A stretch of 39,649 nt of DNA, from the NCBI GenBank assembly GCA_900316805.1, contig ONEJ01000046.1:1-39649 (forward strand), given 5' to 3'. Origin of the DNA: an uncultured Lachnospiraceae bacterium. Lineage in GTDB: Bacteria > Bacillota > Clostridia > Lachnospirales > Lachnospiraceae. The notes below the pieces were generated by a model, which did no database searches, was not told the origin of the DNA, and saw nothing but the letters and a program-made list of their open reading frames with translations. The position numbers were made by a program, and so were the translations under genes. Positions 21,077 to 34,568 of the stretch are shown here, piece after piece (position 1 is the first letter of the stretch; each line of letters opens with the position of its first letter).

Positions 21077-21252
21077 GGGCGCTGAAACATACTTTTCCGC
21101 CATGCGCCCAAAATTCTTCCTTCCATGACTTGAGGCACGAACATTTTGGGCGCATGGAAAAAAAGTCCTCGAAAGCGCCCAAAATATAACACAAATGGAG
21201 GTTTGTACTGTTGTGGCATGGGCGTATACAAAATAAACTACCTTCACCGCCC
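21077..21252. repeat. Tandem array A: three GGGCG-N23-CGCCC modules
   Basis: Modules at 21077-21109, 21148-21180 and 21220-21252, each exactly 33 nt with GGGCG/CGCCC ends, spaced 71 and 72 bp. The first two extend to GGGCGC/GCGCCC. The second is bounded by ATTTTGGGCGC and GCGCCCAAAAT (11-bp pairs). The right end of module 1 and left end of module 2 also form a 15-bp perfect inverted repeat (21100-21114 with 21143-21157). Confidence 0.8.
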
Positions 21253-21271
21253 ATTTTTCGTATAATCATTA

Positions 21272-21379
21272 AATTAAGGACTAAAACTTCCCACATGGAT
21301 TTCCCAGCGGTCCCCGGAGAATCCGGGTGGCAGGCGGGGGTCGCTGGGAAATCCATGTGGGAAGTTTGAATTAAGGACT
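21272..21379. mobile_element. MITE-like hairpin with flanking 11-bp direct repeats
   Basis: Perfect 26-bp inverted arms (21284-21309 and 21342-21367) enclose 32 bp that contain a second small hairpin (CCCGGA-GAA-TCCGGG). Identical 11-bp direct repeats AATTAAGGACT lie just outside (21272-21282 and 21369-21379), as expected for a target duplication. No coding capacity. A purely structural RNA element is the alternative. Confidence 0.6.
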
Positions 21380-21465
21380 TATAGAAGTCCCCGTACAACG
21401 GACATTGAACTTTTACAATTTACGCTTGCATTATAAGATTTGTAACAACGACTTCTGACCCCAGC

Positions 21466-21507
21466 AGTGTTTACTCAGCATTGTCTACTCAATAGTGTCT
21501 ACTCAAC
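21466..21507. repeat. Three tandem copies of a 14-bp unit
   Basis: AGTGTTTACTCAGC, ATTGTCTACTCAAT and AGTGTCTACTCAAC follow one another without gaps; TACTCA is invariant. The last copy also forms AATAGTG/CACTATT pairs with its surroundings. Confidence 0.65.
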
Positions 21508-21571
21508 ACTATTTATGAATAAATATCGTCGATATATATCGTGAGCCGAGGTCGTAAACATATATCGTAAC

Positions 21572-21848
21572 ATATATCTCATGCACAATTGTTCCGCGCC
21601 ACCCGTTTCACAGATTAAATTGATTTTCTATAGGTAGTTCGTGGGTATATAGAGATTTTTTCTTCTTCACTACCCATTTTCCAGATCCGATTGAAGGCTC
21701 ACGGAAAGGTGATGGATATATAGGGATTTTCATCCTCTATACCACTTTTCCAAATCTGGAGGCTTGCAGAATGGCAATAGGTATACAGCGGGAGAATGCA
21801 GAGTAAATAATTGTTTTTTACCGCTGTACATGTATCACAGATTAAATT
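21572..21848. repeat. Tandem array B: diverged modules with altered stems
   Basis: A clear module at 21643-21675 is again 33 nt but ends GGGTA/TACCC instead of GGGCG/CGCCC. A diverged copy starts 71 bp later (21714, GGATATATAG to ATACC). A half module ends 71 bp earlier (CCC at 21602-21604). A further hairpin with stem TACAGCGG/CCGCTGTA lies at 21784-21828. Spacers share CAGATxxxATTGA-like and GGAGGCT-like strings, and TCACAGATTAAATT occurs at both ends (21608-21621 and 21835-21848). Confidence 0.6.
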
Positions 21849-21962
21849 CCAGCCTTTATAAAAAACCACAGGCAGATAGATCATAACCTTCGGATAAAAG
21901 GAAATTAACAATTAAGAAATACGTATTACAAAATTGTAAAACACATGGGAGGACATCCGGCA

Positions 21963-33424: not shown

Positions 33425-33703
33425 GGGCGCTCATGGGATTTTTCGTCTCTGGCGCCCATTCTTTCTGTTAATTCAATTTTCTTATATTGCATTAATACCT
33501 GATTCCGTTTTGTTTTCTGGTTTTTGTTTCTGATTTTTGTTTTTGATTTGGGCGGTAGTGAACACTTTTTCGCTATGTGCCCATTTTTTCTTACCATCAA
33601 GATGTTTCTTTGCATATTTTGGGCGGTACAGTTCTAAATTTACGTATACGCCCATTTTTCCAAAAAATATGGGCGTATAGAAAATTTTCTCTGCGAAGCG
33701 CCC
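33425..33703. repeat. Array C: four GGGCG-N23-CGCCC modules
   Basis: Modules at 33425-33457, 33550-33582, 33621-33653 and 33671-33703, each exactly 33 nt. The second ends GTGCCC, a change that still permits a G-U pair. The spacing is 125, 71 and 50 bp. Three of them are followed by ATTTTT or ATTCT. Modules 3 and 4 share TATACGCCCAT/ATGGGCGTATA (11-bp inverted). Between 1 and 2 is a T-rich stretch with TTTTTGTTTCTGA-like repeats. This accounts for the 460-bp spacer after the activase gene; no gene is seen in it. Confidence 0.8.
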
Positions 33704-33732
33704 ATTCTCCGCTTTTCACATATATTCTGCCA

Positions 33733-33807
33733 CCTAAATTCTATATTTTCCAAGACAGCCTTAACTCCTTATTTTCCAGGGCAAGCCTTAACTCCATATT
33801 TTTCAAG
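33733..33807. repeat. Three ~26-bp tandem copies across the stop codon of the YjbR-MGMT gene
   Basis: Copies at about 33780-33807, 33754-33779 and 33733-33753 share GCCTTAACTCC and TATTTTCCA. The first is coding (LEKYGVKA); in the second the TAT codon equivalent is TAA, the gene's stop. Confidence 0.65.
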
Positions 33808-34404
33808 GTCAACCTTCCCATCCACGACTTCGACACCATCCTCCTGCAGTAGCCTGGCCTGTGCATCGGCACCGCCAAAGGCAAAGGCGCCGGACAACTC
33901 CCCCTTGGCATTGACAACGCGAAAGCAGGGAATATGCTCCGGATCCGGATTCTTGTGGAGTGCGTTGCCAACAACCCTCGCCATCTTGGGATCACCGGCC
34001 ATGGCTGCAATCTGACCGTAGGTTGCCACATGTCCTTTGGGAATTTGCCTCACAGCTTCATAAATCCGCTTCGCCGGACTGTCTGCCACAAGATCATAGC
34101 TCTCAGCAACCATCCGCTTAATTTCAACATCGGGAATGGAACCATCAAGAATAATTGTATTCCAGTGATCTTTGTTCTGATGATATCCGGGGACCACTGC
34201 CGGATAAGCGCTGCGCCAGAAATCCCGCCACTGGGGATCCACTTTCACATTTATATTCAGGAATCCCTCTCTCTCATATGTCCATAAAAAAGCTTTCCTG
34301 CTGCCGGTCATCCGCACAAGCTGCCAGTTCTCGTCATGAAAGGGGGCATCCTGATATGTATTGGGAAATGACAGCCCATATGCCAGTAATTCTTCTCTGT
34401 TCAT
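33769..34404 (-). CDS. YjbR/MmcQ domain fused to an MGMT-type alkyltransferase domain
   Basis: 211 residues from ATG 34404, behind GGAGGGAAAGG. Residues 1-105 are a YjbR/MmcQ-like domain (NREELLAYGLSFPNTY, WRSAYPAVVPGYHQNKDHWN). Residues 108-205 are the DNA-binding domain of O6-alkylguanine-DNA alkyltransferase: the helix-turn-helix GHVATYGQIAAMAG, RVVGNALHKNP, and active-site IPCFRVV with the acceptor cysteine C160. The usual PCHR histidine is Phe, so direct alkyl transfer may be weak; an ATL-like sensing role is possible. Family members without a full N-terminal domain often flag damage for other repair systems. The C-terminus was shaped by a tandem duplication. Confidence 0.82.
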   Translation of the reverse strand: MNREELLAYGLSFPNTYQDAPFHDENWQLVRMTGSRKAFLWTYEREGFLNINVKVDPQWRDFWRSAYPAVVPGYHQNKDHWNTIILDGSIPDVEIKRMVAESYDLVADSPAKRIYEAVRQIPKGHVATYGQIAAMAGDPKMARVVGNALHKNPDPEHIPCFRVVNAKGELSGAFAFGGADAQARLLQEDGVEVVDGKVDLEKYGVKACPGK

Positions 34405-34461: not shown

Positions 34462-34568
34462 GGAACATACTGAAAAATAATTTTTGCCTATATGTCCCGC
34501 GACACGCATTTTACCACTCGATCACTCGTCAATCGGGACATAGCGTACCATTTTTCTCCATATGTCCC
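34462..34568. repeat. Array D: modules with GGGACATA/TATGTCCC stems
   Basis: A 34-nt module at 34535-34568 (8-bp stem GGGACATA/TATGTCCC, TTTTTC in the loop) and a related 37-nt module at 34462-34498 (GGAACATA/TATGTCCC) whose right ends are 70 bp apart. The spacer following each begins with related strings (GCATTTTA and GCATTTAT), and a third spacer runs into the SDR stop codon. Confidence 0.65.

Follow-up and report, generated by a model that had tools for sequence, protein, structure and literature searches.

Mirrored, helically spaced arrays of inverted half-sites in a Lachnospiraceae lineage: candidate sites for a DNA-wrapping architectural protein

The window analyzed here is a stretch of 39,649 nucleotides from the genome of an uncultured Lachnospiraceae bacterium (contig ONEJ01000046.1). 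It carries short inverted-repeat modules in two regions, one at 21 kb and one between 33.4 and 34.6 kb (Table 1), and the array at 21.1 kb lies between genes that Pfam identifies as an acetate kinase and a HIGH-type nucleotidyltransferase. A first reading of the window, made from the letters only (the sequence-only reading), had listed eight modules of exactly 33 nt and related modules of 34-37 nt at 34.5 kb. All eight were located where it had placed them, and two related modules, of 37 nt and 34 nt, are present at 34.5 kb, where a distance of 70 bp separates their right ends; its total of about 11 modules came down to ten. The steps between the 33-nt modules are 71, 72 and then 423 bp in the 21-kb region, and 125, 71 and 50 bp in the 33-kb region. 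With overlapping words counted, 8 pairs of words with the same arms were found in the window, compared with 0.0 in block shuffles. Modules of the GGGTATAT type were also found elsewhere in the host genome, at C51 (with an imperfect right arm), C74, C75 and C89.

Table 1. Modules and spacers located in the window (positions count from the first letter of the window).
Feature	Positions	Strand	
GGGCG-class 33-nt module, left of array centre	21077..21109	-	
Central spacer of 21.1-kb array, 38 bp (71-bp step)	21110..21147	.	
GGGCG-class 33-nt module	21148..21180	+	
Tandem spacer, 39 bp (72-bp step)	21181..21219	.	
GGGCG-class 33-nt module	21220..21252	+	
Second-class 33-nt module, GGGTA-TATAG...CTACCC	21643..21675	+	
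GGGCG 33-nt module	33425..33457	unclear	
33-nt module, one arm mismatch (TGCCC)	33550..33582	-	
GGGCG 33-nt module, 71 bp after the 33550 module	33621..33653	-	
Central spacer, 17 bp (50-bp step, about two turns less than 71)	33654..33670	.	
GGGCG 33-nt module, right of array centre	33671..33703	+	
Third-class 37-nt module, GGGACATATAG...TATGTTCC read on minus strand	34462..34498	-	
Third-class 34-nt module, GGGACATATGG...CTATGTCCC read on minus strand	34535..34568	-	

Other repeats were seen in the same regions. Just after the third module, positions 21283-21368 hold a near-perfect hairpin of about 84 nt, with 33-nt arms that are 94% complementary and 18 nt between them; with AATTAAGGACT direct repeats on either side, 97 bp from each other, it has the look of a small insertion that produced a target duplication. 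Three direct repeats of 14 bp, all imperfect (CAGCAGTGTTTACT and relatives), lie at 21462-21503. After the GGGTA module, the region 21700-21840 contains degenerate module-like sequences, GGATATATAGGG...CTATACC and GGTATACAGCGG...CCGCTGTAC, which are perhaps decayed modules. Imperfect 27-bp repeats occur three times at 33731-33810, at the 3' end of a gene with YjbR and methylguanine methyltransferase DNA-binding domains.

The modules are enriched throughout the host genome, as the sequence-only reading had predicted. The host genome (G000; 2.25 Mb, 82% complete) contains 64 exact matches to the pattern GGGCG-N23-CGCCC, compared with a single match for the reversed-pattern control, and a sister species (G018; 80% complete) contains 105. 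Among 60 genomes of the genus, the pattern was abundant only in G018 besides the host, the rest having 0-9 matches (controls, 0-15). Dozens of short module arrays appear to lie between ordinary genes of the host. A weight-matrix scan of sampled stretches with a cut-off of at least 20 bits yielded 153 modules, 149 of them distinct and 4 without clear orientation. The oriented consensus is GGGCG-YATRG-A-run-T-rich-CCA-N-CGCCC, nearly always with a T before it and an A after it. The loop feature noticed earlier, TTTTTC followed by C-x-ATG, proved to be the minus-strand reading of this asymmetric YATRG-A-tract interior. In G000 and G018 the arrays are mirrored, with minus modules left of the centre and plus modules right of it, so that the GGGCGYATRG ends point inward; among steps shorter than 150 bp, no plus-then-minus step was counted. 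Half-sites fall into the classes GGGCG, GGGTA and GGGACA, the arms being paired across classes, and different classes co-occur in single genomes. The 'core TGGGC' of the half-sites is partly so by design, since TGGGC was set by the search patterns. A further module class, TGGGCATATATATGARAAATCAAAATGTRCTGCCCA, was found nearly unchanged at four places in G018 (C2:86013, C5:20725, C5:36746 and C9:4372).

Spacing between modules is regular. In G000 and G018, 91 of the 104 consecutive steps shorter than 150 bp are 70-72 bp long, and the others are 61 (seven times), 50, 66, 125, 133 and 143 bp (twice). Steps of 70-73, 51, 52, 53, 74, 81 and 124 bp were found in five other species, and several arrays in G011, G054 and G347 read about 71-52-71. 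When all steps were pooled, 132 of 156 were 70-73 bp, and the spacings overall lie near 5, 6, 7 or 8 helical turns, with clusters near 50-53, 61, 70-73 and 81-82 bp. The remaining 24 steps cluster in phase at a best period of 10.25 bp (R = 0.74, P about 2e-6, uncorrected), which was chosen by scanning periods between 8 and 14; the step list was compiled by hand. Because the 24 steps are not independent, we collapsed them to 12 species-and-spacing values, which gave R = 0.62 and P about 0.009. Out-of-phase steps, of 66 and 74 bp, also exist. One orthologous locus (L022/L050) differs between the two species in its central step, which measures 71 bp in G000 but 61 bp in G018; the alignment puts the missing 10 bp in the spacer. 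The 70-72-bp period first noticed in the window is strict, with the refinement that most other spacings differ from it by about whole helical turns.

The spacers had been thought to share weak motifs. Mean pairwise identity among 33 non-redundant tandem spacers was 0.295, compared with 0.280 expected from composition, indicating that they have almost no sequence in common; the feature they share is A/T periodicity. Their A/T content oscillates every 9-10 bp or so, in register with the modules. None of 2000 shuffles and none of 2000 cyclic shifts reached the observed periodicity of the tandem spacers (n = 33), and the result was 0 of 2000 for each of these nulls with the central spacers (n = 19). 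The strongest harmonic of the 71-bp unit is the seventh (10.14 bp), with the third close behind. DNA 100-138 bp outside the arrays had no A/T periodicity. The rhythm in the flanks just beyond the outer modules had about a third of the amplitude found inside and lacked significance at 61-89 bp, suggesting that wrapping may extend past the modules. With similar spacers removed, the periodicity of five other species pooled (n = 30) was reached by 0 of 2000 cyclic shifts, as it was when G012 was left out (n = 16). Singly, G012 (n = 14) gave 4 of 2000 and G054 (n = 4) 12 of 2000, and the periodicity of G011 alone was not significant (n = 6, 326 of 2000); spacers of G056 and G347, too few alone, entered the pooled test only. 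The near-duplicate array L013 was dropped from the spacer, junction and flank analyses.

By rhythm, the nearest known system is the E. coli gyrase motif. According to the part of PMC6379681 that we consulted, this motif has a central 36-bp part and two 47-bp flanks with a 10.75-bp GC periodicity, gyrase cuts BIME-2 repeats, its recognition of DNA is suggested to work by indirect readout, and the motif is likened to nucleosome-positioning DNA. The arrays resemble it in having a central segment of about 36 bp between flanking arms with helical GC/AT periodicity. They could therefore be read as strong DNA gyrase sites, the Lachnospiraceae counterpart of E. coli BIME-2, in which the module would be the cleavage segment of about 36 bp and the spacers would be wrapped on the GyrA C-terminal domains. 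The 33-37-bp modules flanked by periodic spacers of about 34-39 bp fit this reading, as does the occurrence of arrays irrespective of gene direction. However, indirect readout leaves the conserved TGGGC half-sites unexplained, a 130-bp footprint cannot occupy every site at a 71-bp spacing, and the observed period (9-10 bp in the spacers, about 10.25 bp in the spacing) is shorter than 10.75 bp. Periodic spacers are present as in the gyrase motif, but their period and the arm length differ. The arrays are further set apart by sequence-specific half-sites and by a repeat every 71 bp. We regard the gyrase reading as unlikely. With nucleosome-positioning DNA the arrays share an A/T periodicity of about 10 bp, and would share wrapping; they differ in being short, in having strong half-sites and in their bacterial host.

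The sequence-only reading had offered both a folded hairpin and a protein on two half-sites as the reason for the inverted arms. Hairpins of RNA or single-stranded DNA (small RNAs, terminators, processing sites) would account for arms that are paired across classes, and the ten window modules fold with z-scores of -1.5 to -3.9 relative to shuffles; such z-scores are nevertheless expected, inverted arms being the selection criterion. Arm pairing within each of nine species was close to the independent-column expectation (pooled over seven, z at most 1.5), and inner-pair covariation in G000 and G018 reached a z of at most 1.4. The earlier statement that the stem changes and stays paired therefore holds between the GGGCG, GGGTA and GGGACA classes but not within a class, where no covariation beyond column composition was found. 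Real modules folded better than half-swapped chimeras by -0.5 kcal/mol (P = 0.0016 with 144 modules, 0.016 with 95 and 0.025 with 33), an excess of self-complementarity that was absent at the strictest redundancy cut (n = 23) and that was also seen with DNA parameters (0 of 60 chimera sets). This excess lends the hairpin weak support and is a minor effect, perhaps reflecting the palindrome correction that can occur during replication. An Rfam search of the window gave no match above the gathering score. The 23-nt loops between the arms also speak against hairpins, which leave the mirrored order, the absence of strand preference and the helical phasing unexplained. After the tests with Rfam, inner-pair covariation, per-species arm pairing, folding and half-swapped chimeras, we mostly rejected hairpin RNA and consider hairpins of either kind highly improbable. 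The option of a protein on two half-sites gained support from the sequence conservation of the arms, pairing near the column expectation, and the helically phased spacing and spacers.

We searched for arrays in relatives of the host. A genus search with TGGGC...GCCCA...TGGGC at array spacing, in which half-sites not starting with TGGGC would be missed, matched 9 of 62 genomes. The reversed pattern matched once in each of 6 of the 62, which places the single matches of G028 and G006 at control level. On reading the matches, we found arrays with their own half-sites in G012, G054, G056, G011 and G010. A search of the family matched 26 of 299 genomes, mostly with GC-rich single matches (reversed pattern, matches in 4 genomes); besides the host, arrays looked real by eye in G272, G347, G153 and G280, and the sequences from G272 and G347 show the array geometry. 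Some other Lachnospiraceae, then, have the same geometry with different half-sites. Applied to a sample of 196 genomes from the class, a stricter pattern matched the host alone, leaving the 195 others without a match. When arms were detected generically in 20 stretches from six relatives, G012 was the only one to show arrays, and the 80-bp repeats of G056 and 93-bp repeats of G010 seen in the process look like unrelated tandem repeats. In G012, L125:2946-3153 and L127:11784-12090 contain tandem 52-bp arrays (about five helical turns) of GGGGTA...TACCCC modules, possibly a related class.

A wide spread of the GGGCG class was considered and rejected: 9 of 15 matching contig stretches belong to one assembly, CAMFDG01, which matches the sister species G018, and the other 6 are single chance-like matches, in a searched set from which the host's own records may be absent. 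A phage or plasmid origin was also rejected; in the DNA examined, five viral stretches hold one module each and no array, and among plasmid and phage records none resembled the 21.1-kb array. The sequence-only reading knew no named family with such a layout. Within the portion of the open-licence literature that we searched, we likewise found no description of such arrays in Lachnospiraceae or of a family laid out in this way, and the searched part of PMC3733652 has no match to Firmicutes, Clostridi-, Lachnospir-, Eubacterium, spacing or helical. The module family is real, apparently selected, and undescribed in the literature searched.

Comparison of the two species showed that arrays persist at orthologous places. 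In G018 an array also sits at the position corresponding to that between the acetate kinase and nucleotidyltransferase genes. Judged by flanking frames, at least 8 of 28 G000 loci (L011, L013, L014, L015, L016, L019, L022 and the 21-kb array of the window) correspond in position to a G018 array, a minimum since G018 was sampled in part; for L014 and L022 one flank each was matched. In six orthologous arrays aligned in register, 144 of 150 arm bases were identical, compared with 194 of 345 in the interiors and 125 of 324 in the spacers. Two choices inflate the arm value: modules had been detected by their arms, and 9 of the 24 unit pairs did not pass the arm test and were discarded, leaving 15. 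L013 and L015/L043 were left out. The 33-kb array of the window is absent at the orthologous G018 site, where two convergent frames overlap by 29 bp, suggesting that the array is not essential there. Arrays have also been copied within a genome: L023, L055, L056, L005 and L057 share 90-250 bp at about 75-81%, L023 and L056 having a module-spacer-module stretch in common (168 bp at 80%), and some arrays contain internal tandem duplications. Duplication alone would yield equal spacing, and the case for constraint is therefore made from the spacings other than 71 bp and from the diverged spacers. Two other observations concern single loci. The array of five to six modules at L013 (G000) and L046 (G018) is 96% identical with its surroundings over 1341 bp, more than other regions common to both species (about 78-93%), which may mean recent transfer, contamination or strong conservation. 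In G018, L038:1123-1460 is a tandem repeat with a period of about 53 bp near a single module.

Most modules lie outside identified genes. No frame of at least 100 aa overlaps 106 of the 153 modules, and the other 47 lie in 22 such frames; 20 of these frames were scanned and only one had a Pfam family (L010, MatE), suggesting that most are probably chance frames. Frames flanking 52 arrays or single modules were co-oriented in 29 cases, convergent in 12 and divergent in 11, a count that scores the 21-kb array of the window as co-oriented although the acetate kinase and the plus-strand nucleotidyltransferase are divergent. Of 20 flanking frames chosen from 104 and tested, 16 had Pfam families, mixed and mostly metabolic or informational, and the neighbours of the arrays in the window are mixed likewise. 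Regulation of a functional gene set was rejected on the grounds of these mixed neighbours. The arrays might still be operators for an ordinary regulator or silencer acting on adjacent genes, and the conservation of half-sites at orthologous places would be in keeping with that. Such operators are nevertheless very unlikely in our judgement, given the lack of a promoter preference, with 12 of 52 arrays between convergent frames, and the mixed kinds of Pfam families in 16 of 20 flanking frames.

Judged by copy number, by clustering and by palindromic form, REP/BIME is the repeat family that comes nearest. Like REP, BIME and REPIN sequences, the modules are imperfect GC-armed palindromes in many copies (64 exact matches in G000 and 105 in G018, a REP-type copy number), mostly outside identified genes, clustered in both orientations and with species-specific arms. 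They differ in their mirrored rather than strictly alternating order, near whole-turn spacing, periodic spacers and lack of a constant head. In the part of PMC2817692 that we consulted, the palindrome of REP/BIME sequences is accompanied on one side by a GT(A/G)G head lying outside it. No constant head of this kind was found on the modules, whose flanks are T and A (TGGGCG...CGCCCA) with the GGG within the palindrome; G precedes the flanking T at 68% of 40 tandem junctions, and A predominates (66%) at the 56 ends of 28 central spacers. The Pfam family Y1_Tnp, which also covers IS200/IS605 enzymes, had no match in G000 and G018, the genomes richest in modules (82% and 80% complete), or in G036; it had two matches each in the array-bearing G012 and G272 and one in G013, which had no array match in the genus search. 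An association with RAYT is thus unsupported in G000 and G018, although Y1 transposases occur in G012 and G272. The arrays are REP/BIME-like in distribution but fail the REP head and RAYT tests. They also resemble CRISPRs in having 33-nt repeats and unlike spacers of 38 bp. CRISPR repeats are near-identical, direct and in one orientation, whereas the repeats here are degenerate, have dyad symmetry and flip orientation in mid-array. Annotators would have reason for caution, as such arrays can be mistaken for hairpin RNAs or CRISPRs.

Non-autonomous mobile elements of a REPIN-like or MITE-like kind, with mirrored arrays as transposase-bound ends and copies that spread and decay, would explain the many places occupied, the mirror symmetry, the module-spacer-module stretches shared by paralogous arrays such as L023 and L056, the variable presence of the 33-kb array between species, and the Y1-type transposases of G012 and G272. 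However, G000 and G018, both incomplete, yielded no Y1 transposase, and one was found in G013, which had no array match. Spacers have almost no shared sequence once similar ones are removed, orthologous arrays persist with arms kept and spacers diverged, and mobility predicts neither whole-turn spacing nor the phase of A/T in the spacers. We therefore think a mobile origin unlikely.

The reading that we favor, and hold to be probable, is that the arrays are predicted sites for a sequence-specific, DNA-wrapping architectural protein. The sites themselves, spacings close to whole turns, the mirrored order, A/T periodicity in spacers whose sequence is not conserved, and arms that persist between orthologous loci were all obtained by calculation. 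A module would be an inverted pair of half-sites (core TGGGC; TGGGCG(Y)ATRG in the host) that are separated by about 30 bp, equal to three turns, and enclose an A/T-rich middle that may be bendable. With a module repeat of 71-72 bp (seven turns), neighbouring half-sites point in alternating directions and yet share one helix face; with distances of about 30 bp within a module and about 41, 31 or 21 bp across spacers, all would face the same way. The A/T rhythm of the spacers is what would be expected of DNA bent around a protein surface. We propose that a protein may bind the half-sites cooperatively, and that the DNA between them may be bent or wrapped on its surface with the A/T minor grooves inward. 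The products would be nucleoprotein patches resembling nucleosomes, each about 100-390 bp long and scattered between genes. Their role, the least certain step, might lie in chromosome architecture, such as loops, bridging or supercoil containment; the lack of gene-direction preference and the mixed Pfam neighbours fit architecture better than the regulation of a gene set. Against the wrapping-protein reading, the coexisting half-site classes would need several proteins or a loose one.

Bacterial chromosome-organizing proteins are mostly known as weakly specific or single-site binders. We tentatively suggest, as a broader possibility about which we remain doubtful, that a Lachnospiraceae lineage may carry a chromosomal DNA positioning code, in which ladders of alternating half-sites, three and four turns apart and with mirror-symmetric ends, would seed a filament of an undescribed bacterial protein with the DNA wrapped in nucleosome-like fashion; from one species to another the letters of the half-sites would drift while the geometry would keep to 5, 6, 7 or 8 turns. 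A candidate binder should be directly findable, because the sites can be made as short DNA bait. Spacings that change mostly by whole turns, together with a bending rhythm in unconserved spacers, would amount to an evolutionary trace left by a defined DNA-wrapping complex.
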